Of a DNA stretch of 41,385 bases, positions 1,003 through 29,850 are shown piece by piece (position 1 is the first letter of the stretch; every line of letters starts with the position of its first letter). The DNA is taken from positions 1-41,385 of the forward strand of contig MNVG01000024.1 of assembly GCA_001871495.1 (NCBI GenBank), written 5' to 3'. The notes beneath the pieces were generated by a model. That model saw nothing but the letters and a program-made list of their open reading frames with translations, made no database searches and was not told the DNA's origin. This DNA is from Candidatus Micrarchaeota archaeon CG1_02_51_15 (GTDB lineage Archaea; Micrarchaeota; Micrarchaeia; Norongarragalinales; UBA8480). A program made the position numbers and the translations under genes.

Positions 1003-1074
1003 TCCCTTCGCATTTAAGCAATCAATTATTTAACACTTCATTAAGTTCACCCCAATATAAACCGATTTGATTGC

Positions 1075-2041: not shown

Positions 2042-2152
2042 ACTACCAATCACCCTATATTTTGCTAATTTAGTTAACAAAGTAACCGAATTAAGTAAGT
2101 TAACTTAATATAAATACTTTACTATTCGATTTTCTTATTAGTATGAACTAAA

Positions 2153-2587: not shown

Positions 2588-2663
2588 GATTTATCCTCGC
2601 TATTGACTACCTTGAAGTATTTTAACAAGCAGGCAAGGATTCGGCGAAGGATTTTAACCCTGT

Positions 2664-3208: not shown

Positions 3209-3288
3209 CGGAAAAACCTGGCTATTGATTAGTCTCTGCAGGAGTTTTGCGCAATTCCTTCCAGTCCTTGAAAGTAGAAGCCCCGCGT

Positions 3289-4986: not shown

Positions 4987-4998
4987 CTTTTTTCGCGC

Positions 4999-5616: not shown

Positions 5617-6107
5617 TCCTCCTCGGGCCCTTTACTATAAATACGCCGACAAGAGTTTTGCCCTCGACAAGTTAAAAAGGTTTCTTAAAAAAAACCGCGC
5701 GATAGGCTTTTATTCGACGGAAACCTTGATTTAACCCGCGCACTTCCTCGGAGAGGGGGAAACAGAGTGCAAATGCAGGATTGGCACGCAAGAAATTTCG
5801 TTTCCAACGCGAAATGATTTTGGCGGCTCGCCTCGGCTTAGCCCGATTGTGCGTAGCCGTTGGTCTTTACGCAAAAAGAAACGGAAGGAAAAGACTTTCT
5901 AGAAAGTGGAGTCAAGAACGGTTTTTGATTGCGCAAGAGAAAGCCGTTCGCTCGCCGGCACTGCCGCGCGAAAAAATTCATGCGGGCGCTGAACCCGCTC
6001 ACCAAGGTTCGACTCCAGGCCATGAAAAGCAAAGCATGAATCTACGCCCCCCTTTTTCTTCGCCTTGCTTTTAGCACCGAATTGCCAAATTGGGAGATAA
6101 TGCCGTT

Positions 6108-7052: not shown

Positions 7053-7059
7053 GCAAAAC

Positions 7060-7413
7060 TTACCGGGTTACGTTGACAACGCCTCTCAAAAGAGGGTGCA
7101 GCACGCAAACGTAGTCGTAAACCCCAACTGAATCGAAGCGCTTGGAAAAACTATCTCCTTTCCTTAAGACGCCGGAGTCGAACCTGCCTTCGGAAGTCGC
7201 AGTGTGCGGCGTAGAGTCGTCGTTCACCCAGGTCACTTGCGTACCCTGCCTGATATAGAGCTCGGAAGGAACGAAACCCGCTCCAGTAATGTAGACTACT
7301 TTCGAAAAAGGACCTTCGGTTGGAACGGGGCGTTTTGCAAACTGTTCTTCAAGGCACCCGCTGAACAAGACAATTGCAAGCCCAAATGCAAACAAAGGCA
7401 ACAAACTGCGCAT
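7060..7413 (-). CDS. Cupredoxin (plastocyanin/amicyanin-like) lipoprotein
   Basis: Lipobox LFSGC; GFVPSELYIRQGTQVTWVNDDSTPHTATSEGRFDSGVLRKGDSFSKRFDSVGVYDYVCVLHPLLRGVVNV. Confidence 0.9.
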   Translation of the reverse strand: MRSLLPLFAFGLAIVLFSGCLEEQFAKRPVPTEGPFSKVVYITGAGFVPSELYIRQGTQVTWVNDDSTPHTATSEGRFDSGVLRKGDSFSKRFDSVGVYDYVCVLHPLLRGVVNVTR

Positions 7414-7507
7414 GAACTGCTATAAACGCAAGGCTTGAATAAAATTGCTTGTGCGCAAACGATAAATAGGTGAAAGCACTATCTTGGATTAAGAGGTGAA
7501 TTTTGAA

Positions 7508-8047
7508 ATGTTTCCTTTTATGAACAAAAAACGCAGGAACCCGTTCGGGTTTCCCGATTTTGACGACTTCAGAATGGATTTCGACAAAATAGAAGAAGAA
7601 ATGCAGCGCATGATGCAAGAAGCCCAGAAAGGCGGAAAGTTCGCACAAAACAGTCCGTTCGTCTACGGCTTTTCCATGCGCGTAGGTCCTGACGGAAAGC
7701 CGGTTGTAAACGAGTTCGGCAACGTTCCGCGCACCAATGCCCAAGGCAAACCACGGGAGTTGGAAGAACGCGAGCCCCTAGTCGACGTAATCAACAAGCC
7801 CAAGGAAGTCAGCGTAATAGTCGAACTGCCCGGAGTAGACAAGCACGACATCAAGCTGGAAGCAAAAGGCGAAACCCTATCGGTACGGGTGGGCACCAAG
7901 GCACGCAAGTACGCGAAAGACATTGCACTCCACACCAAAGTCAAGCCCGAGTCGGCCAAAGCCACGTACAAAAACGGAGTGCTGGAAGTCACGCTGGACA
8001 AGATTGCGCCAAACGTTGAAAAAAAACGGGAAATAAAAGTCGAGTAG
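7508..8047 (+). CDS. Hsp20/alpha-crystallin family small heat-shock protein
   Basis: LVDVINKPKEVSVIVELPGVDKHDIKLEAKGETLSVRVGTKARKYAKDIALHTKVKPESAKATYKNGVLEVTLDK. Confidence 0.92.
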   Translation: MFPFMNKKRRNPFGFPDFDDFRMDFDKIEEEMQRMMQEAQKGGKFAQNSPFVYGFSMRVGPDGKPVVNEFGNVPRTNAQGKPRELEEREPLVDVINKPKEVSVIVELPGVDKHDIKLEAKGETLSVRVGTKARKYAKDIALHTKVKPESAKATYKNGVLEVTLDKIAPNVEKKREIKVE

Positions 8048-8110
8048 ACAGTTGAAACTTGAAAACCAGAACGGTTCCAAGACTTACCGGTCGGCAGATA
8101 ACCGTGGAAC

Positions 8111-8302
8111 GTGCCGCCCAAAATACTCGAGATACTCATGTCCTACAGACGCGGTTTGCCGCCGTATTCCTCGCTTTCCCGCGCGCAACGCAAACAACTA
8201 ACAATGGAAGAATACGGCCGAGATTTGAAGGAATCGGAAAAATACAGGAAAGAAAGTGCGAAGGTACTGCACTTATTCGGCCGAGTTCAAATGCGGTTGT
8301 GA
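8111..8302 (+). CDS. Small hypothetical protein
   Basis: 63-aa ORF in a gap between convergent genes; charged composition; weak support. Confidence 0.3.
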   Translation: MPPKILEILMSYRRGLPPYSSLSRAQRKQLTMEEYGRDLKESEKYRKESAKVLHLFGRVQMRL

Positions 8303-8351
8303 CTCCAAAAAAAACAAACCCGAACTGCTTAAGTTCAAACAGAAGTGACGC

Positions 8352-9257
8352 CTACTTCAGCGGATGCCTATTAAAGTGAGGGTGGCGGTGCTTGGCGCGG
8401 TGAGGGTGGTTGAATTCGCTTATTGCAAGCCCTGCTGCAAAAACGGTTACTGCCCCGCCAAGAACCACTTTCGACGAAACAACCTCCCCAAATGCGACGA
8501 AACCCACTATTGAGTAAATGAACGGCGCGCAAAGCCTAATCATGGAAACCACGCGGATGGGCGCTTTGGAAAGCGCGTAATTACGCAGGTTATCTCCTAG
8601 GACCAAGTCGAAAAACGCAAGTCCCAACACGAGAACCGCAAGGTAAGGCGTAAACGAGGGAAACGGCTCTAAAACCAAGGCAATTGGAAACAGGATTGCC
8701 GAAGCCCCGAGGAACACGAACGCAACCATTAACTCGTTGAACTCACTACGCAAACAACGCGCAAACAAATACACTGCCACTATGCAGGCAACAGAAAGCA
8801 AAGCGAACGTCATTGCAAGAGGATGGACCGTAGACGCTTTACTTACTAAAACGATGCCCGCAATCGCGGCGACAACGGCTGCGCCGGTTCTCCAAGAAAC
8901 CGTTTCCTTAAGAAACAACCAAGCAGCAGCAGGCGCCAGCGGAATCGACAGCGCGCCGATGAACGAATACGTCCCCAACGTCATCGAAGTATAAGCGTAG
9001 ATTGCAAACGTGCTCAACAAAGCCGTGCCAAAACACAATCCGTAAAAGTGAGGGTCGTGAAAAAAGCCGTCGTGGCGTATTTTCTTGAACCTCGCGTAGG
9101 CAAACAAAACCAGGCCTGCAATCAGGTAAGAAATGCAAATCGCCCAAACCAAGGAAAAGCCTTCGAACGAAAGCAACTTGCCTAAAACGCTTCCAAAAGA
9201 CCAGAAAACCACTGCCGCCACAATCGCGGCGCCCCCCATGGCTATGTTATCCCCCAA
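8352..9257 (-). CDS. EamA/DMT-superfamily transporter
   Basis: About 10 hydrophobic segments in two halves, ...FIGALSIPLAPAAAWLFLKETVSWRTGAAVVAAIAGIVLVS..., ending in a His-rich tail. Confidence 0.85.
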   Translation of the reverse strand: MGDNIAMGGAAIVAAVVFWSFGSVLGKLLSFEGFSLVWAICISYLIAGLVLFAYARFKKIRHDGFFHDPHFYGLCFGTALLSTFAIYAYTSMTLGTYSFIGALSIPLAPAAAWLFLKETVSWRTGAAVVAAIAGIVLVSKASTVHPLAMTFALLSVACIVAVYLFARCLRSEFNELMVAFVFLGASAILFPIALVLEPFPSFTPYLAVLVLGLAFFDLVLGDNLRNYALSKAPIRVVSMIRLCAPFIYSIVGFVAFGEVVSSKVVLGGAVTVFAAGLAISEFNHPHRAKHRHPHFNRHPLK

Positions 9258-9324
9258 AATAGATTACCTTCAAAAACGGAAGGCGGCCGGCGTTAAAAAG
9301 CACGCCCCTAACCAAGCCGAACCG

Positions 9325-9609
9325 CTAGCACCCTTTGATGAATCCGTCCAACTCCTCTTCGTCGGAAGGAAGCCGTATTCCCTTGCGCGCAGCGACGGAA
9401 CGGAGGTTGGAGATAAAGCGTTGATTCCATTCATCCTGCGAAAACGGCAGGCCGACGGGCGCCTTTGAAGCCTGCACAAGCCGTTCGACGTCTTCAACCG
9501 AAAAACGCGACAACAGCTTTCGAACAGCCGAATCGATTTTGCCGCGGCGGGGAGTAATCGCCTGAAACATGCAGTAAACCGGGGACTCTACGAGCGCGCG
9601 AAACCGCAC
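9325..9609 (-). CDS. Hypothetical protein
   Basis: 94-aa ORF directly downstream of 9614-10126, GTG start; no family recognised. Confidence 0.45.
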   Translation of the reverse strand: MRFRALVESPVYCMFQAITPRRGKIDSAVRKLLSRFSVEDVERLVQASKAPVGLPFSQDEWNQRFISNLRSVAARKGIRLPSDEEELDGFIKGC

Positions 9610-9613
9610 GGCT

Positions 9614-10360
9614 TCAAGCAGGCGGCTTGCGCACGCGCCAAATTTCTTCCGAATACGGAAACGCGTTGAAGTGCTCGTCGAAAACGCGTTTTACTGTTAT
9701 TCCTTTTGATGCGAGCTCTTTCTTGACTCCGCCGACGGCCAGAATATTGCTCATCAACGCGTGCGAAACCGGAGTGTACGCCCTGCCCAACTGCACCAAC
9801 ACCCTCACCTCCTTTTCCCGGGCCAACCCGGGAAATTCCCGCAACAACACTCTAATGCAACCTTTGAGGCTTTCGGCCATCGCCTTGTCGCGCAAAGCCG
9901 CCCCCTTTTGCATCGACGCATACTTTTTTTCCATTGCGTCGAGTGCAAGCCGCGTGTTTCCGGCCATCAACGCGTTCAAGCGCAGTTCGTTTTTGACTAT
10001 AGACTCGCGGTAAAGACCGTGAAGACGGGAAAGCTCTTCCTCCGAATAGGCTTCAATGGAATGCAGCCTCAAACCCCGCGATCTTAAGACTATCCCGTTG
10101 ATTCCTTTCAAGAATTCGTCTTGCAACGCCAGGCGCGTGCACTGGTTTCCCGCCTTCCTTGCGGACTCTATTTAACGATTTAATTTCGCAAACCCCTCGG
10201 TCCTCTGACGCGGCGTCAAACCTACCCCTTCCAACGCCAGCACATGCGGCCTGAATTTTTCAATGTGCTTGCCTAGTTTCTCGGCATCTTCCTTTCCCGC
10301 ATGGTAACCGAAGTAAATCAACACCTTTATACGCGGAGTTTCCCGCTTCGTTTCAATCAA
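9614..10360 (-). pseudogene. Hypothetical protein split by an in-frame TAA (10172-10174)
   Basis: ORF 10360-10172 (KVLIYFGYHAGKEDAEKLGKHIEKFRPHVLALEGVGLTPRQRTEGFAKLNR*) continues in the same frame through IESARKAGNQCTRLA into ORF 10126-9614. Confidence 0.6.
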
Positions 10361-11383
10361 TCAAAACCATTTTTTCAACTGCGATTGTTCGGAAGACGCG
10401 GGTTCCTTGAAGGCCTTCGCCAGCGCGGAGCCGACGCGCTCGCGCGAAAAATCGTGTTCGTCGCACATGAACTGCAGCAACGCCGAACGGTCGGGCTCGC
10501 GGAACTGCATTTCCGACTTGGGGACTGAAACGCGGGGCGGGTTGTTGAACAGTTCGAACACGGGCTTCCAGTCCATTTCCTGATTCAACACGGAAAGGAT
10601 CGAGTCGAAAGAATCGTGCTCTAAAACGAGCTTGAGCGACTTCTTGGGGCCGATGCCGCGGATTCCGGGGTCGAAGTCGGTTCCACAAAGCATTCCCATC
10701 CACACCAGCTTCTCGCGCGTTATTCCTAACTTAGTTAGGTTTTCCTGCAGGGAGTATTCCTCGGGAACCACGTCCACGTAGGCGTTACGACGAGGCAGCT
10801 TGCGCCTTCCTGCAATCGTGATGTTGCGCACGAGCAGCGACGCACCGAAAAGCAGGGAGTCGAAGTCCTGCGAAGCAGCTGCGTAAACCACTCCGTCGGC
10901 AGCCATTACCGAGCACTGTGCTTCGCCTTCAGAAGGGGCTTGAACCCAGGGAAGCCCCATTGCTTCCAGCAGGCGCTTGGAGTCTTCAATATTTTCGGAA
11001 GTGAGCCGCGCAGTGCGCTGGGCGAGGATGGCGGCTTCTTCGACTTCGCCGACTTCCAGCGCTTCGCGGCGCTGTTCTTCGGCCTCGTGCTTAACCTGCG
11101 CGCGGGCGGCGATAGTGGCGTACTTGAGGGGGTTGGGCTTGCCGTCGAAAACAAACACTGGCCGGATTCCTTTTTCGAGGAGGCTGCAGGTGCGGTAGAA
11201 CAAGCCGCTCAAGTGGGAAGTAACGCGGCCTTTGGAGTCCATTAACGGCGTGCCGTCGGGCTGCCTGATTATAGTAATGAATTGGTAAAGCGTGTTGAAA
11301 GCGTCTACTGCAAGTGTTTTTCCCGCAAGATCCGACAACGGCTTTTCGTGCTTTTTCAAAACGGGCTGAAGCGCTACCCCCAT
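10361..11383 (-). CDS. fen: Flap endonuclease FEN-1
   Basis: MGVALQPVL...LAVDAFNTLYQFI...FDGKPNPLK...APSEGEAQCSVMA...AAASQDFDSLLFG...GTDFDPGIRGIGPKKSLKL; C-terminal PIP-box QSQLKKWF. Confidence 0.97.
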   Translation of the reverse strand: MGVALQPVLKKHEKPLSDLAGKTLAVDAFNTLYQFITIIRQPDGTPLMDSKGRVTSHLSGLFYRTCSLLEKGIRPVFVFDGKPNPLKYATIAARAQVKHEAEEQRREALEVGEVEEAAILAQRTARLTSENIEDSKRLLEAMGLPWVQAPSEGEAQCSVMAADGVVYAAASQDFDSLLFGASLLVRNITIAGRRKLPRRNAYVDVVPEEYSLQENLTKLGITREKLVWMGMLCGTDFDPGIRGIGPKKSLKLVLEHDSFDSILSVLNQEMDWKPVFELFNNPPRVSVPKSEMQFREPDRSALLQFMCDEHDFSRERVGSALAKAFKEPASSEQSQLKKWF

Positions 11384-11421
11384 TTGACCATCACGAAAGC
11401 ATTTTATTACGCGACGGCTTT

Positions 11422-11471
11422 AAAATGGTTGTAACCAAGAAAACCATTTTTTGCCCGCCGCCTTAGGCGGG
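11422..11471 (+). promoter_or_regulatory. Two consecutive stem-loops in the MBF1 5' leader
   Basis: AAAATGGTT (11422-11430)/AACCATTTT (11442-11450), then CCCGCC (11454-11459)/GGCGGG (11466-11471), abutting GGAGGAG. Confidence 0.55.
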
Positions 11472-11486
11472 GAGGAGAAAATTCCA

Positions 11487-11984
11487 ATGCGTGAAACAGA
11501 CTGCGATATATGCGGAAGACCCGCAATCGGAGAAGCGTTCGTCGAAGGCGCGCGAGTATGGGTATGCATGCGCTGCAGCCAACACGGTCGAATGATAACC
11601 CGCAAGCCCGCGCCTGCTCCAAAAGGAATGGGCACGGCAATACGCGCAAAACCCGTTGCCGCGCCGGAACTAGAACTCGCCGAAAATTACGGAACCCTAC
11701 TAAAAAAAGCCCGTGAAGGCAAGGGACTTAACCTAGAACAGCTCGGCCAACAAGTAGGAATAAGAGCGCAGGAAATACAACGCATGGAAGAACAAAAGCT
11801 TAAACCGCCTGAAAAAGACCGAATCAAACTGGAGTCTTTCTTGAAAATCAGGTTGATAGTGCAAGCAAGCGAAGCCGAGAAAAAACCCGAAGACCTTGCA
11901 AAAACGCTTGAAGGAATGCGCGGCCGCGGAGGCAACGCAGTGACGCTTGCAGACATGGTTGAAATAAAAATAAAAAAAAGCTGA
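11487..11984 (+). CDS. Archaeal multiprotein bridging factor aMBF1
   Basis: N-terminal zinc ribbon CDICGRPAIGEAFVEGARVWVCMRCSQHG plus HTH YGTLLKKAREGKGLNLEQLGQQVGIRAQEIQRMEEQKLKPPEK. Confidence 0.92.
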   Translation: MRETDCDICGRPAIGEAFVEGARVWVCMRCSQHGRMITRKPAPAPKGMGTAIRAKPVAAPELELAENYGTLLKKAREGKGLNLEQLGQQVGIRAQEIQRMEEQKLKPPEKDRIKLESFLKIRLIVQASEAEKKPEDLAKTLEGMRGRGGNAVTLADMVEIKIKKS

Positions 11985-11994
11985 TTAAACAACA

Positions 11995-13347
11995 TTGAAA
12001 AAAAACGACGAACCCAAACCCATTGAAAAACCGTTGCCCTACCTTGCAGCCGCCGTAATTACGACAGCTGCATTCTTCCTAATCGCATTCTCGGAACTCC
12101 CGGTTTACGCAAAGGCAGTAGCCTGCATAGCCTGTCTGGCAATCTGCGGAAAAGCACTCCAGATTGCAGGCGGTTTCATCGGAGGCTGGGGCGTAATAGT
12201 ACTCCGCGGACGCAACGGATTCAACGCAATGAAAATCCTCGCCCAAAAATTCGCTTCCCAAAGCACGGCATTATCCGAACTCGGACTAACCCTTTTCTTT
12301 GGGGCATTGTACGGCTGGAAACTCTTTGGAAAAAACCCCAAGAAACTCGCGGCCCACCTGCTGGTGCTAGTTTTTTTTGCCTGGGCATTCCAAATGACTG
12401 CAACAGGACGCGCAGACTTGACGCCGGTGTTCACGATAATAAGCGTCTTGTTCGGCTTGGCCGCAACGTTCTTCATAATAATCGCGATGAACGCGTTCTC
12501 AATAGGCACCAACTTCGAAACAGCCGCACCCGGCGCAATGCCTGCAATCCCGGGCCTGACTCTCCCAATTGAAGCCATTGCCTCGCTCGTAATACTGATG
12601 ATAGTACACGAAATGGCGCACGGAATACTGTTCTTCATAGAAAAACTCAAGGTAAAATCATCGGGAGTAATCCTGTTCGGATTCATTCCAATAGGCGCTT
12701 TCGTCGAACAAGACGAAAAACAATTCGAAAAAACCCCTATTGAAAAACGAAGGCGGGTGTTGGTTGCAGGAAGCACTGCAAACTTCCTTACTGCCTTTCT
12801 GTTCGTAATACTCTCGGTCCCGCTGGCAATAGCACTGGGCGCCACAAGCGGAGGCGTGTTCGTAAACACCGTATCCAACGCGTCAAACGCCTACGGCGTA
12901 CTGCCTGAAAACTCGACGATAATCGCCTTGAACGGAGTCCCGATTGCAAGCTCGACCGACTTGGGAAACGCAATGCAGCCTCTGGAAGCAGGCGAAGTTG
13001 CCCGAATACAAACCAAAGAAGGCGGCGACTATTCGGTTACGCTAAAAGAAAAAGGCAAGCTCGGAATAATAGTATCCAACACGCCAAAGCAAGGAATGGA
13101 ACTGCCCTACGCCGCGCTGGCACTGCTGTTTTCAGTAGCCAACCTCACCGCCCTCCTGAACTTAATGGTGGCGCTGTTCAACATGATGCCCCTGTTCATC
13201 ACAGACGGCCACTACATAATACGCGACGAACTCATCCACGCACTGGGCCCAAAACGCGAAAAACAAGCGTTACTATCATCAAAGGCAATTGCAATAATCT
13301 TCCTACTAATACTGGCGGTAAACTTCCTGCCTTGGCTAAAAGGATGA
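11995..13347 (+). CDS. Site-2-protease-like M50 metalloprotease with PDZ-like domain
   Basis: VILMIVHEMAHGILFF (HExxH), GSTANFLTAFLF, NSTIIALNGVPI (PDZ-like), NMMPLFITDGHYI; multiple transmembrane segments. Confidence 0.92.
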   Translation: MKKNDEPKPIEKPLPYLAAAVITTAAFFLIAFSELPVYAKAVACIACLAICGKALQIAGGFIGGWGVIVLRGRNGFNAMKILAQKFASQSTALSELGLTLFFGALYGWKLFGKNPKKLAAHLLVLVFFAWAFQMTATGRADLTPVFTIISVLFGLAATFFIIIAMNAFSIGTNFETAAPGAMPAIPGLTLPIEAIASLVILMIVHEMAHGILFFIEKLKVKSSGVILFGFIPIGAFVEQDEKQFEKTPIEKRRRVLVAGSTANFLTAFLFVILSVPLAIALGATSGGVFVNTVSNASNAYGVLPENSTIIALNGVPIASSTDLGNAMQPLEAGEVARIQTKEGGDYSVTLKEKGKLGIIVSNTPKQGMELPYAALALLFSVANLTALLNLMVALFNMMPLFITDGHYIIRDELIHALGPKREKQALLSSKAIAIIFLLILAVNFLPWLKG

Positions 13348-13362
13348 AAAAAAGGTTAGAAC

Positions 13363-13824
13363 ATGACTGGATCAAAACGAGGCAGGTCCGCGGAAATCCG
13401 CGAACCCGTCTTAAACCTGAAGGAAGCGATTGAAACCCGAGAACTCATAAAAACAGGCCTTCGGCTTACGCCCCATAAAACACTTGAAAGCGCGGCAAAA
13501 GAAATTGCAGCCCACTTCGGACCCGGAATTACGGCCGAGCACGTAATTGAAAAACTAAGACCGTATTACCCAGAACAAAAAGGACTCACGGCATTTACTT
13601 TCCTGCACACTGAAGAAGGCCGCAACCTCGACAATACAACTTACCAAAGGCCCAGGGCAATAATGGCAATCAAAGGCGGCCACGCCCTGATGGTTGAAAA
13701 CGCGCCCGCTTACCGAATAAACCCCGTTACCAGAAGAAAGACGTTGATTCCCCAACTTTTCCTAATGAAGCTCAGGCTCGAAGACGCAATTGAAATCAAA
13801 AACGCCCAACAAGAATTGCCGTGA
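13363..13824 (+). CDS. Hypothetical protein
   Basis: 153-aa ORF, coding-like composition, no family recognised. Confidence 0.65.
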   Translation: MTGSKRGRSAEIREPVLNLKEAIETRELIKTGLRLTPHKTLESAAKEIAAHFGPGITAEHVIEKLRPYYPEQKGLTAFTFLHTEEGRNLDNTTYQRPRAIMAIKGGHALMVENAPAYRINPVTRRKTLIPQLFLMKLRLEDAIEIKNAQQELP

Positions 13825-13846
13825 AAGAAAAGAACGCGAAGCCAAT

Positions 13847-14224
13847 ATGCCGACTGAAAGACCAATAGTCAGGCTTGCACGGAAAAATGAAAAGCAATGG
13901 CTTTACGAAAACCAGCACTTGTTCCAAGTCGGCTACCCGCTTGCGCCAAGCGGCCTCCGAAAAGAATGGCCCTGCTTTGTGATTTCAAAAAACGGAAGAA
14001 TACTCGGTTTTCACTCGCTGGAATTCCACGAAACCAACGGAGAAAATCACGCGTGGGTCGGCCACGCTTCCGTAGCGTCCGGCCTTGAAGGAAAAGGATT
14101 AGGCAGTCTTCTTGTAAAACACGCGAACACGCAGCTACTCAAAAAAGGATTTGCGGCCATCCACGTTTACGCAAACGAGCCGACTGCCAAAAAACTGGGC
14201 AAAGCAATGGTTTCAAACAATTGA
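13847..14224 (+). CDS. GNAT-like N-acetyltransferase
   Basis: FVISKNGRILGFHSLEF...WVGHASVASGLEGKGLGSLLVKHANTQLLKKGFAAIHVYANEPTAKKLGK. Confidence 0.65.
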   Translation: MPTERPIVRLARKNEKQWLYENQHLFQVGYPLAPSGLRKEWPCFVISKNGRILGFHSLEFHETNGENHAWVGHASVASGLEGKGLGSLLVKHANTQLLKKGFAAIHVYANEPTAKKLGKAMVSNN

Positions 14225-14276
14225 AGGAAAAGGGAAACACGCTCTTATCAACTAAATTGTCAAAAAAACGCGCCGA

Positions 14277-14426
14277 ATGAAAAAACGCGGCGAAAAAATA
14301 GTGGTTGAAAATACGTACTTGATTACGCGCGTGGAAATAATGCCTAAAGGCCGCAGAATACACTTAACCCGCGTGGAAAACGAAGCGCACGCAAATAAGC
14401 TAGTAAAGGCAATAGAAAACCTGTGA
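14277..14426 (+). CDS. Small hypothetical protein, 49 aa
   Basis: ATG...TGA reading MKKRGEKIVVENTYLITRVEIMPKGRRIHLTRVENEAHANKLVKAIENL; below the ORF-track length cut-off. Confidence 0.45.
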   Translation: MKKRGEKIVVENTYLITRVEIMPKGRRIHLTRVENEAHANKLVKAIENL

Positions 14427-14771
14427 ATCACGGAAGTGCAGGCGAAAAAGCAAAAACGGATTACGCGAGGTCCGCTTGCAACGCAGCAATGCACCGCCTG
14501 CTTTCAACTCTGGGCATTGCCACAAAAAAAACGCGGCGTAAACGAAAAACCCTATTACAGTTACTCCCAAATAGTTTCCAAACCTCTGGGCCTTCACGAA
14601 ATTATCGACGGCAAAAGTTTGAAAAAATTTTGCGAACGTCAAAACAAGTGCAAACAGACCTGCGCTCTCCGCAATTCAACGAAATACAGGAAACGAGAAA
14701 ATCGGCTACATTATACCTCAATGGCAGGTAACGCGCTATCATTGGATAACCGGCAGGACTGCAAACCGAAG

Positions 14772-15299
14772 TTAAACGACTTGTTCCGGCGTTAAACCCG
14801 CTTTTTCAGTAATTTCCTTCTCAAGCGCATATTCTTCGGGCTCCGACTCTACTATAAGCCGCATTACTTCCTTATCGCGCTTTCCATATCTTTCCTTCAA
14901 GTAATCAAACCGCTCGCTTACTGAAACCACGCAATCGTGCTTGACGCGCATGTCCGCGTAACGAACTAGCTTCTCTTCCAACGTGTCTTGCAACGGCGAA
15001 TGGCCGAGCTTGCAGTGCTTCAGAATTATCGAAGCAACTTCAGGGCAACCCAGTTCGGAAAGCATTTCCGCGCCAATCTCCCCGTGCTTTGAAGGCTCGC
15101 CGGAAGTCAAATGCTTGTCCAAATCATGCAACAACGCGCCTGCTTCGACTAACGCAACGTCTACGGAAAAGCCCCGCTCGCGCATGCGCAACGCAAGAAA
15201 CACGGCAACACGCCGCACTTGCTCGATGTGACGAAGTATGTTGTCAGGAACGCAATGCTCGCGCAAAAGACGCCTACAATGCTCTGTAGAAGGAATCAT
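14772..15299 (-). CDS. HD-domain metal-dependent phosphohydrolase-like protein
   Basis: HIEQVRRVAVFLALRMRERGFSVDVALVEAGALLHDLDKHLTSGEPSKHGEIGAEML...ILKHCKLG. Confidence 0.85.
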   Translation of the reverse strand: MIPSTEHCRRLLREHCVPDNILRHIEQVRRVAVFLALRMRERGFSVDVALVEAGALLHDLDKHLTSGEPSKHGEIGAEMLSELGCPEVASIILKHCKLGHSPLQDTLEEKLVRYADMRVKHDCVVSVSERFDYLKERYGKRDKEVMRLIVESEPEEYALEKEITEKAGLTPEQVV

Positions 15300-15380
15300 A
15301 ACGTAATATATTTGCGCGAAAAAGTTTTTTTAGGTAACGCCCTCTCCTTTTACAAACGCTTTTTAACAACCCGCCCGCCA

Positions 15381-15713
15381 ATGAATGCAAGCGAAGGGAT
15401 TATTTTGAGAAAAAAACTTTTAGCAGCAAGCATAGTACTTCTAGGCGTGCTCTGCATCGCAATAGGGTTATTCCAGTTCAACCAGTATTACACTACTTCA
15501 GCAGCAACGTCGCAGACGCTCAAACAGCTTGACGCCCTTTCAAGCGGAAACGCCGCCGAGTCAATAGGTTTTAGTACGGCCGACTTGGCAGCAACCCGAA
15601 CTGCAACGGAAAACACGCTGAATTCCCTTTTGTTCTCGGCATTCGCAGACTTTGCACTCGGAGCAATCCTGTTTGCAGCAGGTTACGTAATGACACCCCG
15701 CGAAAGCCACTAA
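15381..15713 (+). CDS. Small membrane protein with two hydrophobic segments
   Basis: MNASEGIILRKKLLAASIVLLGVLCIAIGLF...FALGAILFAAGYVMTPRESH. Confidence 0.65.
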   Translation: MNASEGIILRKKLLAASIVLLGVLCIAIGLFQFNQYYTTSAATSQTLKQLDALSSGNAAESIGFSTADLAATRTATENTLNSLLFSAFADFALGAILFAAGYVMTPRESH

Positions 15714-15781
15714 CGGAGATAAAATTAAAATGTGTCGATTGACAACCCGCGAAAGCCACTAACGGAGATAAAATTAAAATG
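15697..15781. repeat. Tandem 36-bp perfect direct repeat, 49-bp period
   Basis: CCCGCGAAAGCCACTAACGGAGATAAAATTAAAATG at 15697-15732 and 15746-15781. Confidence 0.95.
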
Positions 15782-17290
15782 ATTGACAAAAACAACGCAG
15801 TCACAATAACCCTCGCAATAGCAGTGATCGCAGTCGCAATAGCGATCGCCTTCGCAGCCACGGCGCCCACCAAACAAGTCAATGAAGCAACACTGAAAGT
15901 AAGCTGGGACATGCTGCAAAACCCCGAGCAAGCCTCTTCCGACAAGCCCAACGCAGTCGAAGTCACGGTATACCAATCGCAGGCACAAGACTACTACCAG
16001 CCCTTCACCCAAATGAAAATGCAGTACAACCAACAAGCCGGAATCGGCTTGGTTAAAGAAGTACGAACTGCCGAATTAAGCGGAGGCGCGTCGCTCTTAA
16101 AGCTCAAAAACACCGCGGCCTACATCGACGCCACCAGCGTCACGTTCAAAGACCTAACCGACCAAGGAACGCAGCTGCTTGAACAAAACTATGACTACGA
16201 CTTGATAAACGACCAGAAGCTACTGCAGAAGTACGTGGACAAAACCATTTCAGTACGGACTGCAAACCAAACCATCTCCGGAACCCTGTTGAGTTCAACC
16301 GGAGGCACGCTCGTCCTCCAAACCGCAACCGGAATAACCAGCCTCGGCAACTACGACCAAATAAACTACCCCGCCTTGCCCGAAGGGCTGATCACCACGC
16401 CCACGCTGACTTGGCTGCTGGCCAACACGCAAGCAGGCAAGCACGACTTTGAAGTCACGTACTTAACCAGCGGACTCGACTGGACTGCAAACTACGTTGC
16501 GACAACCAACGCAGACGACACGTCAATGCAACTAAGAGGATGGGTAAGCGTAACCAACGACGCGGGAACCACTTTCGAAAACGCGCAATTAAAACTCGTT
16601 GCAGGCGACGTCAACCTAGTACAAAACCAGGCAGTGCCCGCGCCCCGAATGTACGCCGAAACAATGGCAGTCGGCGCAGCCGACTCCAAATCGTTTGCAC
16701 AAGAACAACTGTTCGAATACCACCTCTACACGCTCGAACGGCCGACAACGCTCGCAAACGGTCAAGTCAAGCAAATCAACTTCTTCAACGCTGAAAACGT
16801 CAAAGTCGAAAAACAATTCGTGTTCGAACCCTCTTCAAGCTCTAAAGTCCAAGTAAAACTTAACTTTGAAAACAAGAAAAGCCAAGGGCTGGGACTGCCC
16901 CTGCCTAAAGGAAAAGTCCGAATGTACAAACCCGATTCGAGTGGGCAACTGCAGTTCCTCGGCGAAGACCAAATCGACCACACTGCCGAAAACGAGTCGC
17001 TAAAACTCGCAGTAGGCAACACATTCGACGTAGTGGCAGAACGCACGCAAACAGACAACCGCCAACGCGGCTCGTGCGCCCAAGAAAACTCTTACACCGT
17101 GAAAGTCCGCAACCACAAAACCGAAGCAATTAAAGTAGTAGTGGTTGAAAACGTCTGGGGAGACGTGACTATACTCCGTGAAAGCGCGTCCCACAAGAAA
17201 GAATCCACCTACAAGTACTCCTGGGAAGTACCGGTTCCGGCAGGCGGAACAACCGAACACACTTACACAATCGAACAACGGTGGTGCTGA
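15779..17290 (+). CDS. DUF4139-like surface/exported protein with N-terminal transmembrane anchor
   Basis: FEVTYLTSGLDWTANYVATTNADDTSMQLRGWVSVTNDAGTTFENAQLKLVAGDVNLVQ and a conserved C-terminal region (YTVKVRNHKTEAIKVVVVENVWGDVTIL). Confidence 0.85.
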   Translation: MIDKNNAVTITLAIAVIAVAIAIAFAATAPTKQVNEATLKVSWDMLQNPEQASSDKPNAVEVTVYQSQAQDYYQPFTQMKMQYNQQAGIGLVKEVRTAELSGGASLLKLKNTAAYIDATSVTFKDLTDQGTQLLEQNYDYDLINDQKLLQKYVDKTISVRTANQTISGTLLSSTGGTLVLQTATGITSLGNYDQINYPALPEGLITTPTLTWLLANTQAGKHDFEVTYLTSGLDWTANYVATTNADDTSMQLRGWVSVTNDAGTTFENAQLKLVAGDVNLVQNQAVPAPRMYAETMAVGAADSKSFAQEQLFEYHLYTLERPTTLANGQVKQINFFNAENVKVEKQFVFEPSSSSKVQVKLNFENKKSQGLGLPLPKGKVRMYKPDSSGQLQFLGEDQIDHTAENESLKLAVGNTFDVVAERTQTDNRQRGSCAQENSYTVKVRNHKTEAIKVVVVENVWGDVTILRESASHKKESTYKYSWEVPVPAGGTTEHTYTIEQRWC

Positions 17291-17508
17291 AACAACGAAA
17301 AACAACAGCCGTTGAACACGCTTGGCACGACAATACCGCGTGCCTCCCTTATTCGGAAGAAAACCCTTAAGGTTCCAAACTTAACCCTGCAAGGAAGTAT
17401 TCCAAGAAGGAAATAACGCGCCTAGATTATATGAGCACTTGGAGACAATTCGCAGAGGGCCAAAATTACAAGATGCACCAACACACCCGAAAGGACGCGA
17501 GGTAGCAG

Positions 17509-18667
17509 ATGCCTATGGGCGGACTAGCTGCCGAATCGATAAGAGACCGTTCCTCTGACCCAACGTTGGGCAAACTCAACAACAACCAGCTGAAGTTACT
17601 AATATCAATACTAGCATATAACCTTCCAGCGCATAATGCACGAAAAGAACCCGCGCAAAACAACCCAAAACAAGAACGCGCCCTAAAATCGGTAATAGCC
17701 GCAATCCCGGACGCATTGAAATACGTAAAACGCTCAGCGTTAGAGTATGAGCTAAAACAAAAAGTTTCAAGACGATTGACTGAACTATCAGATCACCTTA
17801 ACCACGTATTGTGGCAACCGCACGAAAATAGGTTATCGAAAGGGTTAACCGAAATTTCATACCAACTTCCAATTACCAAATGGGCCGAACTTGAACCCGA
17901 CGACCGACGCAACACAACCGCCGCCTATGCCGACCTAGCGACCCGAATAATGCAGGCACACCTGCCAACCGGTTCGAGCAACGTGCAAAAATTAAGCCAA
18001 AGACAGATGAAGACAGTAATATCCACCTTAACCTACGACCTTAAAGACGCGCTTGACGCTCGTACCCAAAAAGAATTCGTTCAACCCACCAAAAAACAAG
18101 AACGCCCTAACTTACGTCCGGAGTTTACCGACGGTCGTAACCGCAATAAAACTGGCACAAACGAAAATGAATCAAACCCCGTTAAACGATAAAATAAAAC
18201 GAGCCGCTTCAAAACGCCTAAACGAATTATCCGCGCATCTTGAAGGAATAAACGCGCAAGCACAAAGGATTCTAGCAACCCGAAACGAAATCAGGCAACG
18301 GACAAGCAAACTGAATTCGGCAACAACAAGAAATATCGCGAACATAGTAAGAACCACCCGCAACTTACCTGCACCCGAAGCTAAACCAGCCGCACTACCC
18401 CCACACCGGCGCCTAACCTGCCCAGAACGCCTTAGAAACCCAATTGAAGCACAAGCATTTACGGACAACGTTGAAGAAGCATTCAATAGAATCATCGTCA
18501 ATCAAGGAACTGAAAACAAAATGCCCAGTGCTAAGGGGACCGAAACGGTTTTTGAAGAAAACTTGGCGAGGCTAAGAGCAAAGCAGAGACTAAAACATGC
18601 ACAAGAACCGCGGTTCCAGCCTGGCCCTGCCAGAGGAAAAGAGAGTTCTGCAAATAGACGAGAGTAG
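17509..18667 (+). pseudogene. Helical protein with two internal repeats, split by an apparent 2-nt deletion near 18103; partner of the adjacent PP2C
   Basis: Repeat 1 KLNNNQLKLLISILAYNL...NPKQERALKSVIAA...LKQKVSRRLTELSDHL; repeat 2 KLSQRQMKTVISTLTYDL...TKKQER|ALTYVRSLPTVV...IKRAASKRLNELSAHL. DNA at the junction is CAAGAACGCGCCCTA in repeat 1 and CAAGAACGCCCTA in repeat 2. Confidence 0.7.
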
Positions 18668-18739
18668 CCTAAAAACGGGGGTGCATCTTCGGACCAAAAC
18701 GTTGCGTCGAAAACAAATAACAAGAGCGCTTAACCTAAA

Positions 18740-19519
18740 ATGACGACTTCTCGAATAACCCAAGGAAAAGAAATCCATCCAGAAGCCACGATATACACTG
18801 CAAGCTTAATAGGACAACGCAAAATACAGCAAGACGCTTTCAAAACCAACCGCGAAAACGGGGCGTACGTGCTTGCCGACGGAATGAGTCACGAAACCCT
18901 CGGAATACACGCGGCCAAAGCCGCTTGCAAGGCAATCACGGCCCAACCCAGCCACTCCGGATTCCAAAAAGCGTTCGACGACGTGCTTAAAACCCAACGC
19001 AGATACAACGAACCAAACATTGGAACAACCGCCGCGCTAGCCAAACTAGACAGTCACACCATACTTTTAGCGCATACCGGAGACACCAGAATCTACGAAC
19101 TTACCCACGAAGGAATCTTAACTCTCTTAACAAGAGACCACACGCTTGCACAACACCGCGCGGACCAAAACCAGGCAGTAACCGCCGACCAACACAGCAA
19201 ATTAACCAAATTCATAGGAACAAAACAACCCAACGCGTCGTATTATCCAAAAGGAGAAAGAGGACACGCCCAATTCGTGAAGGCGCTAGAAGACAGCGAA
19301 ATGCGTTGGCCGCCCAAAATTACGAGAATAGACCGCAATCAATACCGCGCAATCCTGCTCTGCACGGACGGACTGCACCGAACCCTAAGCCAAAAACAAA
19401 TTCAAGCCGTACTTAACCTAAAAGAAGGCAATCCAGCGGTCAGGTTGATCGAAAGACTGCCCAAAGACGCTTACGACAACGCAACCGCTACAGTAATTGA
19501 ATTGACTTCTAAAAAGTAA
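18740..19519 (+). CDS. PP2C-type (PPM) protein phosphatase, copy A
   Basis: GQRKIQQDAF, YVLADGMSHETLGIHAAKAA, GTTAALAKLDSHTILLAHTGDTRIYEL, TRDHTLAQ, LLCTDGLHRTLSQKQI, YDNATATVIEL. Confidence 0.9.
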   Translation: MTTSRITQGKEIHPEATIYTASLIGQRKIQQDAFKTNRENGAYVLADGMSHETLGIHAAKAACKAITAQPSHSGFQKAFDDVLKTQRRYNEPNIGTTAALAKLDSHTILLAHTGDTRIYELTHEGILTLLTRDHTLAQHRADQNQAVTADQHSKLTKFIGTKQPNASYYPKGERGHAQFVKALEDSEMRWPPKITRIDRNQYRAILLCTDGLHRTLSQKQIQAVLNLKEGNPAVRLIERLPKDAYDNATATVIELTSKK

Positions 19520-19525
19520 GGAAAA

Positions 19526-19864
19526 CTATTTTTCAAGCGACATTATTGCCTGCGCAATGTCGCCGTCGGCTTCCTTCAACGCTTGCTCGGCCGCTTCGCG
19601 CGAAGCCGACAGAACAGACTGCATCACCAAATCGACGTCGGACTGTCCCTTGTCTTCCTTGCCTGCCTCTTCCACGAAGTCGCCTGCAACCTGCAAGCTC
19701 TTCTGGCCCTGCATGTCAATAAGCGTAACCTGCGGGTTCTCGATAACCAACTTGGAACCATCCGGCTTTTCAACGATTACCCTCGAAGCTTCGATCGGCT
19801 CGTTCTTGATGCCCATCTGGTTCATTATCTTAGCCATTTGCGCGGGATTCATCTTCGGAAACAA
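19526..19864 (-). CDS. nac: Nascent polypeptide-associated complex protein (NAC)
   Basis: MNPAQMAKIMNQMGIKNEPIEASRVIVEKPDGSKLVIENPQVTLIDMQGQKSLQVAG plus C-terminal UBA-like EAAEQALKEADGDIAQAIMSL. Confidence 0.95.
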   Translation of the reverse strand: MFPKMNPAQMAKIMNQMGIKNEPIEASRVIVEKPDGSKLVIENPQVTLIDMQGQKSLQVAGDFVEEAGKEDKGQSDVDLVMQSVLSASREAAEQALKEADGDIAQAIMSLEK

Positions 19865-19956
19865 CGTTTAAAAACCTCCTGAAACTAACTAAAAGCAACA
19901 AGAATCAAGCGCCCAAGGAATAAAAACGCTTTGAGCAAAAATAGGAGGAACGGCAA

Positions 19957-20943
19957 ATGGCGAAGCGACCCCACGAGATATTCAAAAAAATACACAACGA
20001 TTTGAACGTAACCCCCCGCAGCCCTAAAGGTTCTAAACGAACAGCCAACGACGAATACCCTCACTTCAAGAAAACCACCCTTTATTCAAACATGGACTTC
20101 TGGAACCCGACAACTCCCGAACAAAAAAGCGAAGCAGACCAACACGCCGACGTTATTGCGAGCGTCGCTGCGAAAACAATCTTTGAAAGCGAAGCCGCAA
20201 GAAAACGATTTGTATCCGACTGGAAATCGAAAGACGTGATTCGCAGGCAATTACGTTCGGTCATAAGGCACTTACACGCTGCTCACTTGGCGCACATTGA
20301 CTTAATGCCGCATTCGCCCGGCGAGATTACTGCGCTTGGCCTCGCAAGGCATACGACCTCGTTTTACGAAGCGCTTGATGGCGTAGCAAGAGAAATACGC
20401 CCGAGAGAAAGGCTGCTTTCAAGAAAACTAAGCGACCTAGCTGATTTCATACAGCGCCTGAACGAACACCACGCAGCCCTTGCAATAAAACCGCCCAGCG
20501 TAATACAAGACGCGCAACCTGCAGTAGAAAAGACGCTTGACCGTAAAGTGCCGCTGTGGCCTAACAAGGAACAAATGAAACTGCTTGCGAAAGCAACGCA
20601 GGAAGTAGCCAAACACTCCGGACTAAGCACAGAAAGAGCCGAAAACGTGGCAGGCACCCTGCGAGAACTTTCCAACGCGGTGCTGGAATTACGAAGCCGC
20701 GAGCCCAAATCGGATTATTTGAAAACAACGAGATTACGCAAGGCAATTGAAACGCTTACAGAAACCAGAGAGTACTTGAATACAACCAAAACCAAACTGC
20801 TTCAAAGCCATGCAAAACAACGCGTGGTGGACGCAGCGCTGCACTGGTTGAATCACACTGAAAAAATTCGAAAAACTGCAGAAGAAAACCCGCGAAACTC
20901 GGGCCGCAGCCTAGCCGACCTTGGAAGAAAGGAGCGTGAATAA
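19957..20943 (+). CDS. Helical hypothetical protein, PP2C partner copy B
   Basis: Helical segments similar in spacing to the 17509-18667 protein (RLLSRKLSDLADFIQRLNEHH; RLRKAIETLTETREYLNTTKTKLLQSHAKQRVVDAALHWLNH). Stop overlaps the start region of the downstream PP2C. Confidence 0.7.
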   Translation: MAKRPHEIFKKIHNDLNVTPRSPKGSKRTANDEYPHFKKTTLYSNMDFWNPTTPEQKSEADQHADVIASVAAKTIFESEAARKRFVSDWKSKDVIRRQLRSVIRHLHAAHLAHIDLMPHSPGEITALGLARHTTSFYEALDGVAREIRPRERLLSRKLSDLADFIQRLNEHHAALAIKPPSVIQDAQPAVEKTLDRKVPLWPNKEQMKLLAKATQEVAKHSGLSTERAENVAGTLRELSNAVLELRSREPKSDYLKTTRLRKAIETLTETREYLNTTKTKLLQSHAKQRVVDAALHWLNHTEKIRKTAEENPRNSGRSLADLGRKERE

Positions 20944-21748
20944 GAATTTGCCTTCCCGAAAACCTTTGGAAACTAAACGAAGCCCTCGCGTTAAGGCGCA
21001 AGCCTTCAGCCACGTTGGAGGACGGAAAAACAACGAAGACCGTTTTCATGCTAAAACGGATTTGTTCGTGGTTGCAGACGGAATGGAGGGTTATCCAGGC
21101 GGCGAGCACGCTGCCGAAATCGCGTGCGAATCGTTTGCGGAAAAACACGGCGAAATAATCAAGTCAGGAAATCCAGGCGAAGAACTGCTCAAGACGTTCA
21201 GGCACGCACAACAAAAAATAGAAGAAGCACAGTCAAGTACTTCAAGCCACGGCGCAATGGGTTCGACTGTTGCGGCAGTCGCGCTCAAAAACGGGGTTGC
21301 GCACGCGGTTCACGCAGGAGACACCCGGGTTTACCACTACGATTGGGCTGAAAAGAAGCTCAAGCAAGTTACTGCCGACCACACGTGGGCCCAAGCGCTG
21401 ATTGACAAAGGACTTCCGATTACGAAAAACCACCCGGGCCACAGCCAACTCACGCAGTTTCTAGGCGGTCACAGGAATCGCGACTCTGTTTTCCTAAACA
21501 AAGCGGATTACAACCATTTCAGCGTAAGCAGGAACGATGCGATACTCATTTGTTCAGACGGCCTGCACTCGCTGTTGAGCGACGAGGAAATAAAAAAAGA
21601 AATTGCCAAGCCCCGCTTGACTTGGACTAACGTGGCCAAGGCGCTGGTTGCAAAAGCGCACAAGAAGGCGTTGGAGCAAGCCAGGCTGGAAGGAAAGAAA
21701 CCGCATCACGACAACATTACCGCGTTGTTCGTGCGTGTGAAAACGTAA
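20921..21748 (+). CDS. PP2C-type (PPM) protein phosphatase, copy B
   Basis: VGGRKNNEDRFH, FVVADGMEGYPGGEHAAEIA, GAMGSTVAAVAL, AVHAGDTRVYHYD, TADHTWAQALIDKG, ILICSDGLHSLLSDEEI, HHDNITALFV. Likely start is GTG at 20936, overlapping the previous stop. Confidence 0.94.
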   Translation: MEERSVNKNLPSRKPLETKRSPRVKAQAFSHVGGRKNNEDRFHAKTDLFVVADGMEGYPGGEHAAEIACESFAEKHGEIIKSGNPGEELLKTFRHAQQKIEEAQSSTSSHGAMGSTVAAVALKNGVAHAVHAGDTRVYHYDWAEKKLKQVTADHTWAQALIDKGLPITKNHPGHSQLTQFLGGHRNRDSVFLNKADYNHFSVSRNDAILICSDGLHSLLSDEEIKKEIAKPRLTWTNVAKALVAKAHKKALEQARLEGKKPHHDNITALFVRVKT

Positions 21749-21788: not shown

Positions 21789-22214
21789 ATGGCAAGTAAA
21801 ACCGTTTTCTTAGAGCACACTGCGGACGTTTTGTTCGAGTCAAGCGGAGCTTCTTTCGAAGAGGCGCTTGAAAACGCGGCGCAAGCATTGTTTGAGACGA
21901 TTGCAGACCCTTCGAAAGTCAGGGGGAGTAATAGCCTGGACGTAGCGGTGCACGCGGTTTCGCTTGAAGAACTGGCCGTTGCCACGCTCTCGCGGCTGTT
22001 GTCGGAAGAGGATGCAAACGAATGGTTTTTCAAGAGCTTTCGCGTAACCGAATTTGCAAAAACCACGCGCGGCTATTCCCTAAAAGGAATTGTGGAAGGC
22101 GGGGATGCAAACCGCGAGGCCGGCCGCATGACGGTAAAAGCGGTTACGCACCACGAAACGCGCGTGACCCAAGAAGGAAACTCGTGGAAAATAAGGATTT
22201 TGCTCGACATCTGA
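21789..22214 (+). CDS. Archease
   Basis: FLEHTADVLFESSGASFEEALENAAQALFETI...DAN..., AGRMTVKAVTHHETRV, KIRILLDI. Confidence 0.93.
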   Translation: MASKTVFLEHTADVLFESSGASFEEALENAAQALFETIADPSKVRGSNSLDVAVHAVSLEELAVATLSRLLSEEDANEWFFKSFRVTEFAKTTRGYSLKGIVEGGDANREAGRMTVKAVTHHETRVTQEGNSWKIRILLDI

Positions 22215-24855: not shown

Positions 24856-24901
24856 AATGAAACCCCATTTCCCAAACTACGAAAACTGCTAAGTCAACCT
24901 C

Positions 24902-25996
24902 ATGTCGTCAATAGGAGGAGCGCTTGGTTGGAAAAGCCCTTTCCCCCAACTCAAGCAACTGCCTGCAAGCGAATTGCGCCAAGCGCAGAACATCGTGCTC
25001 GTAGTGATTAACGGAATGGACGAGCGTTTCTTCCGCGAAACGAAGCCGCCGCAATCCTGCGCAAAAACCGGCGCAAGCCAATCACCTCAGTGTTTCCCGC
25101 AACGACTGCAACCGCATTCAGCACTTTTTACTCCGGACTTCCGCCGCCAATGCACGAAATAACCGGCTACTTGCTCCGCACGGGCCGCGGGGTTTGCGTC
25201 GCGCTGAAAATGCTTCCCAACGGCGCCAAGAAACAGTTGCCCGAGAAGGAAGTACGCAAGACCTTCAGCTTCACTCCTTTCTTCAAGCGCATCCGCGCGC
25301 CTTCCTTCGTAATCCTGCCGCGCAAAATCGCGGACAGCGCATTCAACATGATTGCTTGCACGGGCGCAAACCGAATAAACTACGAAGGATACGCCCAGTT
25401 CGTGGAAAAAACCGCGCAAGCCGCCCAAAGGAAAAAGGGAAAAACTTTCGTCCTCGCCTACGCCGAGGCACTGGACGTCGCCTGCCACTGCAAAGGCCCG
25501 AAAAGCAAAAGGGCGAAAACCGAATTCACCAAAATAAGCAACGCGTTGAAAAAACTCGCGAAAAAACTACGCAGCACCGGCGCAGTACTCCTTGTTACCG
25601 CCGACCACGGCCTCACCGGAATAAGGGAGAGGATACTACTAAACGACTTCCCGCAACTCACGGAAATGCTGGAACTGCCGCGCAGGCGACAGCCGCGCTG
25701 CAACTTGCTTAGTCAAAAAAGGAAGAAAAGCCGAGTTCGCGAAACTCACACGGAAACAACTGAAAAAATACTGCACAGTAGTTCCATCCGAGGAAGTACT
25801 GCGCCGCAAACTATTGGGTCCAGGAAAGCCGCATCCCGCGCTACGAAAGCGGATGGGCGACTTCGTCCTGTTCGCAAAACCCGGGCTGGAAGCAAGGGAC
25901 TTCGTCAAAGGAGAGACCATGCGGCGCACGAAAGGACAGCACGGCGGAACAACACGCGAAGAAATGGTCGTTCCACTGATTGTAATCAAGTGCTGA
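24902..25996 (+). pseudogene. Alkaline-phosphatase-superfamily (NPP/phosphodiesterase-like) gene with two frameshifts
   Basis: Fragments in three frames: NIVLVVINGMDERFF; TSVFPATTATAFSTFYSGLPPPMHEITGYLL...LLVTADHGLTGI; AGDSRAATCLVKKGRKAEFAKL...MGDFVLFAKPGLEARDF...KGQHGGTTREEMVVPLIVIKC. Shifts near 25040 and 25684. Confidence 0.8.
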
Positions 25997-28786: not shown

Positions 28787-29850
28787 ATGGACGGACGAAT
28801 TTCCAGTAACAATGTGACTGCACATGGGGGACCCGGAACGCTGCCGAACGCGTTGAAAGAGCTGTGGTTCGAAACCGGGGGCAGCTGCCACCTACGGTGT
28901 TCGTATTGCTTTGCGGAATCAGGGGGGCTTGACGAGTCTCCTGACAACGTTTCAATAGGTCGCATTAAGGCATACTTGCATGAATTCAAGAAACTAGTAG
29001 GCGAGCGGATTGGGTTGGTTGGCGCCGGAGAACCTTTTCACCCCCGGAATATAAGGGACACCTTCGAGATACTTGATTTAGTAAGGCCACTGCAGCTTAA
29101 GACAACCGTATTTACTACTGCAGACCTGTTGGACGGGCGTTCGATTAAACAACTGGAACAGTATCCGAACCTGCTGCTGCTCGTAAAGTATAACAGCCGA
29201 ATCTGTGAAATCCAGGACGCGATGGTAAACGTCAAGGATACGCCGTGCGAAGGGACGCAGTAATGCGCGAATTGATCGCGCGGGGTTTTAACAATGGGCG
29301 GCTGGGCATAGTCACAAGCGTCTTGGAACAAAATGCTTTCGAAATGCCGGCAATTTTTAGGTACGCCCGGGACAATAAGCTGATATTCGACGCGGACATC
29401 CCTATTCCCCGTGGCAGGGGACGGAATTGCAACCGGGAAGAAATAGCGCGGCTTGCGAAACCGATCATATAACAATTAAGTAAAATAGACAAAAAGGAAT
29501 ACGACAACTCTTGGGAACCGCACGCAACGTACATCGCAAGCCCGCCGTGCACGCGGTTCAACCGGCACTTGTACGTCCGAAAGGACGGAGCAGTAATACC
29601 TTGCGTCGGTTCTCCCAACGTAATTCTAGGCAACCTTAAAATCGAGACTTTGGAACAAATTTGGGAAAAACCGCTGACTAGAATAATACGCGGCCACGAA
29701 TACACGGGAAAGTGCACTACCTGTAGGAATTATTTGGAGCGAAAATGCTTTTCCTGCCTCGGCAGGAGTACAGACGGCCTGTCGACCGAACAACTGCAGT
29801 AAGACGGCTGCGTAAAAACAATCGGATGCTTCCAATACAAGTCGAGCTAA
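28787..29850 (+). pseudogene. Radical SAM protein with SPASM-like C-terminus, interrupted by one frameshift and two in-frame TAA stops
   Basis: CHLRCSYC motif; frame change near 29225-29245 (GYAVRRDAVMREL); TAA at 29470-29472 and 29800-29802; C-terminal VRKDGAVIPCVGSPNVILGNLKIETLEQIW...GKCTTCRNYLERKCFSC. Confidence 0.8.

Follow-up and report, generated by a model that had tools for sequence, protein, structure and literature searches.

Two pairs of a helical-protein gene and a PP2C phosphatase gene around NAC in a micrarchaeal genome: one intact, one probably decaying

Introduction

What does a protein phosphatase gene do in an operon with a helical protein that is not a kinase, and how could two such pairs have come to stand on either side of a single gene? 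The question is raised by positions 17509-21748 of the window, by which we mean the whole analysed stretch of 41,385 nucleotides (contig MNVG01000024.1 of Candidatus Micrarchaeota archaeon CG1_02_51_15, which is contig 39 of a genome of 1.13 Mb in 56 contigs). Here two phosphatase genes, PP2C1 and PP2C2, each follow a gene for a basic helical protein, hel1 and hel2 respectively, and the two resulting cassettes flank the gene for the archaeal nascent polypeptide-associated complex protein, NAC. The partners of archaeal PP2Cs are, to our knowledge, largely unknown, and an operon pairing one of them with a non-kinase helical protein offers a small, testable case of how signalling parts are gained and lost in a reduced archaeal genome. 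Archaeal PP2Cs are also rare in databases: a census from 2024 counts 439 of them among 57,520 PF13672 sequences (PMC12088040).

The reading developed below, to which we give about an even chance, is that a lineage-specific unit of basic helical protein and PP2C was duplicated locally around NAC, that copy 2 is intact and copy 1 decaying, and that hel2 serves as a subunit of PP2C2.

Two related phosphatases

The genes on which this reading turns are the two phosphatases and hel2:

18740-19519, plus strand: PP2C1, a fast-evolving Ser/Thr phosphatase of the PPM family with intact metal ligands, starting 72 nt past the end of hel1
20936-21748, plus strand: PP2C2, PPM-family Ser/Thr phosphatase, its start overlapping the hel2 stop by 8 nt
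19957-20943, plus strand: hel2, basic all-helical orphan protein, a single open reading frame, its ATG preceded at 8 nt by the ribosome-binding site AGGAGG

Judged from their sequences, PP2C1 and PP2C2 are members of the PPM/PP2C Ser/Thr phosphatase family. Both match PF13672 (E 7.9e-11 and 42.3 bits for PP2C1, E 4.3e-15 and 56.3 bits for PP2C2, cut-off 24 bits), and alignment with Bacillus Stp reveals that each keeps the metal-binding Asp of motifs 1, 2, 5, 8 and 11, which bears out the first-pass annotation of this DNA, where two PP2Cs with conserved Asp motifs had been placed at these positions. The closest solved structures are the cyanobacterial tPphA for PP2C2 (2j82, E 2.4e-24) and PppA for PP2C1 (6jkv), and neither protein reaches the cut-off of the Stp1/IreP equivalog NF033484 (135 and 75.1 bits for the window's PP2Cs, cut-off 230 bits). 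A pattern scan of the GTDB genome contigs confirmed nothing for PP2C2, and an alignment scan of viral contigs returned distant PP2Cs only, which served as tree references.

Two phylogenies bear on the relation between the phosphatases. PP2C1 and PP2C2 are sisters with support of 96/83 when 33 PP2C domains of the class are compared, and of 99/96 in a tree of 46 proteins obtained by adding 13 bacterial, haloarchaeal and viral-contig references. Because the two are each other's closest relatives, the phosphatase genes are best regarded as duplicated locally, and since the PP2C1 branch (2.02) is about three times longer than that of PP2C2 (0.64), the duplication would be old and copy 1 the faster-evolving. 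The duplication of the PP2C gene is therefore, as far as the trees tell, real and old. Next to the pair, at 95/94, the 33-domain tree places the PP2Cs of G003 and G006, which belong to the same family; once outside references are added, the next neighbours are no longer resolved. PP2C genes are patchily distributed (30 of the 246 genomes of the class surveyed), and none was found in G001, a genome of the same genus that is 88% complete.

Two further observations concern PP2C genes elsewhere. Contig 8 of the same genome carries a third PP2C-like gene (L009:1411-2181) in which three metal-ligand residues are lost (GDT to GHT, SDG to TNG, DN to HN), and which probably encodes a pseudophosphatase. 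Another genome of the order (G016, L057:7531-9602) holds two tandem PP2C genes that are sisters at 99/96, a second local PP2C duplication in the order.

hel2 and PP2C2

Direct reading of the DNA shows an overlap of 8 nt between the 3' end of hel2 and the GTG start of PP2C2, and hel2-PP2C2 (19957-21748) is an intact pair with coupled translation. Because translation is coupled, a complex of the two proteins is the simplest reading, and hel2 would most likely be a dedicated regulatory or targeting subunit of PP2C2. Like the scaffold, sensor or substrate role that the first-pass annotation had suggested for the helical proteins, this is inference. As a subunit, hel2 would position or gate PP2C2, much as other PP2Cs are controlled by helical regulatory domains, and a kinase from another part of the genome would phosphorylate the targets of PP2C2. 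A precedent is SpoIIE, where a long regulatory helix activates the PP2C by positioning the two switch helices, which complete its metal site (PMC5468089). It is plausible that hel2, as a separate helical subunit, acts at the switch helices in like manner, or alternatively that its basic surface tethers the phosphatase. The likeness to SpoIIE lies in this proposed logic only, a helical element controlling a PP2C through its switch helices (PMC5468089), whereas the putative regulator of the window is a separate orphan protein bearing no sequence similarity to SpoIIE. More speculatively, hel2-PP2C2 might form a stand-alone archaeal phosphatase holoenzyme, in which the species-specific basic helical protein is an obligate subunit for targeting or gating; on this view the unit was duplicated around NAC and its substrates may be ribosome-associated or bound to nucleic acid, a proposal that we hold to be improbable in this full form.

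hel1 and the decay of cassette 1

Cassette 1 is differently preserved, and its helical gene is read in two parts:

17509-18192, plus strand: first part of hel1, frame 1, basic all-helical orphan protein, holding copy A of the repeat and the beginning of copy B
18107-18667, plus strand: second part of hel1, frame 2, with the rest of copy B and the C-terminus, stop TAG at 18665-18667
17572-17814, plus strand: hel1 repeat copy A, KLNNNQ...HLNHVLW
17989-18256, plus strand: hel1 repeat copy B, KLSQRQ...HLEGINA, with the frame change inside it
18103-18109, plus strand: hel1 lesion, CGCCCTA against CGCGCCCTA in repeat copy A, two bases missing and the frame shifted

Overlapping stop and start codons had been claimed for both pairs. 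The overlap is real between hel2 and PP2C2, but the ATGA at 18740 is not the end of any helical frame: hel1, which runs in frame 1 to 18192 and then in frame 2 to its stop at 18667, had been misread as a single gene overlapping PP2C1. The TGA within that ATGA (18741) belongs to the third frame, where the coding signal is weak, and a second frame change would be needed to reach it. The frame change itself falls inside an internal repeat with a unit of about 85 aa, copies A and B of which are 42% identical (Smith-Waterman score 108 against 30 +/- 5, with 0 of 1000 shuffles as high). Where copy A reads CAAGAACGCGCCCTA, copy B reads CAAGAACGCCCTA, with two bases fewer, and the protein similarity between the copies runs on across the frame change; codon statistics turn to frame 2 from about 18105 and mostly hold it to about 18580, with an ambiguous stretch at about 18250-18340. 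Two of the helical segments that had been quoted as common to both cassettes (KQKVSRRL..., IKRAASKRL...) are in fact the two copies of this repeat within hel1. One codon upstream of the hel1 ATG lies a TAG; farther upstream, this frame has no other stop back to an ATG at 17431, and the gene may once have been longer.

Other accounts of the interrupted frame were considered and set aside. Programmed frameshifting was rejected because a 2-base loss relative to the gene's own repeat explains the frame change more simply. Stop-codon readthrough from hel1 into PP2C1 would keep to one frame, yet two stops lie between them. As for recoding of TAG, the window has TAA as well as TAG among its in-frame stops, and TAG serves as a terminator.

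The lesion in hel1 has company, since three other accessory genes of the window are broken by frame changes or in-frame stops: a PD40 beta-propeller-type gene (6090-7020) with an in-frame TAG at 6540, past which the coding signal goes on in the same frame; a type I phosphodiesterase/pyrophosphatase gene (24860-25990) with two frame changes (2-1-2); and a radical SAM gene (28787-29780) whose frame changes near 29220 and which is interrupted by a TAA in frame at 29470. The breaks fall in accessory genes and spare the housekeeping genes that were examined, a pattern that speaks for genuine decay more than for assembly errors at random. Taken together with the frame lesion of hel1 and the long branch of PP2C1, these broken neighbours indicate that cassette 1 is probably decaying, and the earlier picture of two equal modules gives way to one intact and one probably damaged cassette. 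The alternative, that assembly or sequencing introduced the frame change by mistake and that the genome has two intact, active cassettes, seems to us rather unlikely: the fragmentation of the assembly into 56 contigs and the good coding potential on either side of the frame change would accord with it, but the other lesions in the window include in-frame stops and are confined to accessory genes, the missing bases lie in CGCGCC and not in a long homopolymer, and it is to PP2C1 that the longer branch belongs.

Position around NAC

The neighbourhood that the cassettes seem to have entered is defined by two genes:

19526-19864, minus strand: NAC, over the cut-off of TIGR00264, ancestral neighbour of archease
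21789-22214, plus strand: archease, ancestral divergent neighbour of NAC

NAC is a ribosome-associated chaperone, and its gene is present in the window along with those for archease, Nre and a FEN-1-like protein, a set that marks the DNA as archaeal; genome size and gene content point to a DPANN lineage. Both cassettes lie on the plus strand, in the identical order of helical gene and PP2C, and flank the minus-strand NAC gene just as had been proposed. We compared NAC loci from 29 relatives and the own genome. Archease was found with NAC in 17 relatives, divergently in 17 of 17, and in the others the fetched flank contained no archease. The distance between the 5' ends of the two genes is 63-483 bp in 14 of these 17 relatives, about 0.95-1.0 kb in G022 and G023, and 2243 bp in G010, where two unrelated genes stand between them; in the window it is 1925 bp, occupied by hel2-PP2C2. 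The spacing is short in every one of G002-G006, the remaining family members whose flank could be read. In the same-genus genome G001, the side of NAC that faces away from archease, occupied in the window by hel1-PP2C1, carries a 480-aa gene followed by a homologue of the window's DUF4139 gene. The short spacing in relatives and the different gene in G001 therefore make both cassettes look like additions, and the genes in G010 imply that the interval took up genes more than once.

Two minor features of these flanks may be recorded. One of the two intervening genes of G010 (L053:6634-8374) resembles a membrane transporter, and a 42-nt direct repeat (window 15691-15781; 98% identical, 49-nt spacing) doubles the region in which the DUF4139 gene starts, its ATG included.

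A history compatible with this arrangement would begin with a unit of basic helical protein and PP2C arising beside NAC, whose local duplication would have left one copy on each side of the gene. Copy 2 would have been inserted between NAC and archease as an intact coupled operon, and copy 1 would have undergone fast evolution and then the 2-base loss that broke the frame of its helical gene. That the cassettes are instead a mobile or defence element is very improbable, for while the insertion is absent from the relatives examined and the AT content of hel1, PP2C1 and hel2 is slightly above the mean for the window, we detected no defence family besides one coiled-coil match and one generic PP2C match, no phage family besides generic matches, no homologue of hel2 in viral contigs, and neither flanking repeats nor a tRNA.

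Kinship of the helical proteins

Duplication of the helical genes, in contrast to that of the phosphatases, finds its sequence evidence in one short stretch of hel2:

20407-20466, plus strand: hel2 segment ERLLSRKLSDLADFIQRLNE, weak resemblance to the hel1 repeat motif

A profile of the two hel1 repeat copies picks out this motif of about 20 residues in hel2. Its score was equalled by 41-60 of 3000 shuffles (p about 0.015, a generous value because the motif was chosen after the data had been seen) and by 0-1 of 223 real proteins. The two proteins are also alike in composition and isoelectric point (10.35 for hel1, 9.89 for hel2). Mutual kinship of hel1 and hel2 thus has weak backing, and on our reading the helical genes would have been duplicated along with the phosphatases. 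Of the side-by-side duplication of whole modules proposed at first, the phosphatase half is supported by the trees and the helical half weakly supported.

Several results weigh against the duplicated-unit reading. Full-length Smith-Waterman and hidden Markov model comparisons of hel1 and hel2 are not significant, so that the claim of a relation in profile searches survives for the short motif and otherwise comes close to failing. Their models (single-sequence AlphaFold without an alignment, hel1 being read across its frame change) are all-alpha with low confidence (pLDDT 52-54), and a Foldseek search with that of hel2 gave no fold match. No co-occurrence of helical protein and PP2C was found in other genomes. 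The placement of PP2C1, with its long branch and skewed composition, possibly reflects a long-branch effect, and the archease side of G001 is unassembled, so that cassette 2 could be of any age within the genus.

A serious if less favoured alternative is that the PP2C gene alone was duplicated and that hel1 and hel2 are unrelated lineage-specific orphans, brought to their positions by chance and without a common role. The absence of full-length similarity speaks for it, as does the shortness of a motif whose p of about 0.015 is uncorrected for the choice of motif, and basic, Ala/Leu-rich helical proteins resemble each other by composition; however, the helical genes match in position, orientation, charge and predicted all-helical make-up, the coupling in cassette 2 is tight, and among 223 real proteins no more than one fits the motif equally well.

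On the searches made here, hel1 and hel2 are species-specific orphans. In the 301 genomes of the phylum no credible homologue of either appeared, hel1 being searched as the protein that spans the frame change; the hel1 repeat has none in 246 genomes of the class, and pattern scans with hel2 of GTDB species genomes and IMG/VR viral contigs, whose reach is limited to close relatives, confirmed none; Pfam, NCBIfam, PADLOC and PHROGs returned coiled-coil-type noise only. Because the two proteins lack homologues in the searched genomes, their co-occurrence with PP2C cannot be shown, and the conserved pairing in other genomes whose absence the first-pass annotation had named in advance as evidence against its proposal did not appear among the 301. 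As orphans, they confine the reach of the present case, so far, to this lineage. Two kinds of candidate were rejected: the single weak matches of hel1 and hel2, which lie in G213 and G184 and are a protein of 554 aa resembling GHKL-type ATPases and one of 409 aa, the stretch fetched containing no PP2C, and the N-terminal extension of the G003 PP2C, which has no detectable relation to either.

Kinases and known systems

No kinase was found among the window's scanned open reading frames or among the genes adjoining the cassettes, as first noted, and Pfam and NCBIfam detect no kinase domain in the helical proteins, where one would have counted against the first proposal. The matches of the Pkinase model in the own genome are Bud32 and RIO1, both named from sequence, and an N-lobe protein of 288 aa; they lie on other contigs, none of them near the cassettes. 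The latter, an orphan on contig 18 (L016/L110:7145-8011), has the N-lobe motif GEGSYGTVYLG...VAVKEF and scores 26.7 bits with PK_Tyr_Ser-Thr (cut-off 23.1 bits); no C-lobe was matched. It lends some substance to another reading, that the helical proteins are substrates, or phospho-scaffolds, of a kinase-phosphatase switch with its kinase gene in another part of the genome. Proteins phosphorylated on Ser or Thr are the general targets of PP2Cs, and this gene exceeds a kinase cut-off, but with an N-lobe match only and a gene unlinked to the cassettes we regard that reading as doubtful.

Compared with known systems, the window's phosphatases share the catalytic domain and all metal ligands with PPM phosphatases of the Stp1/PstP/tPphA type, from which they differ in having no adjoining kinase gene, a score far below the NCBIfam equivalog cut-off and a helical orphan as partner. 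The stp-pknB arrangement of Bacillus (L113: rlmN-stp-pknB) likewise places a phosphatase in an operon with its presumed partner, whereas the partner in the window is not a kinase. The PP2Cs of G003 and G006, which group next to the window's pair as described above, are single-copy, lie away from NAC and carry a fused N-terminal extension of about 100 aa.

A different association of PP2C domains with coiled coils was seen in family f18 of the same class (L103, L105, L106, L107), where an island adjoining apparent secD/secF homologues contains proteins of 750-1650 aa with a PP2C domain, followed by several coiled-coil-rich genes; the L103 island also holds a full Ser/Thr kinase (PF00069, 169 bits).

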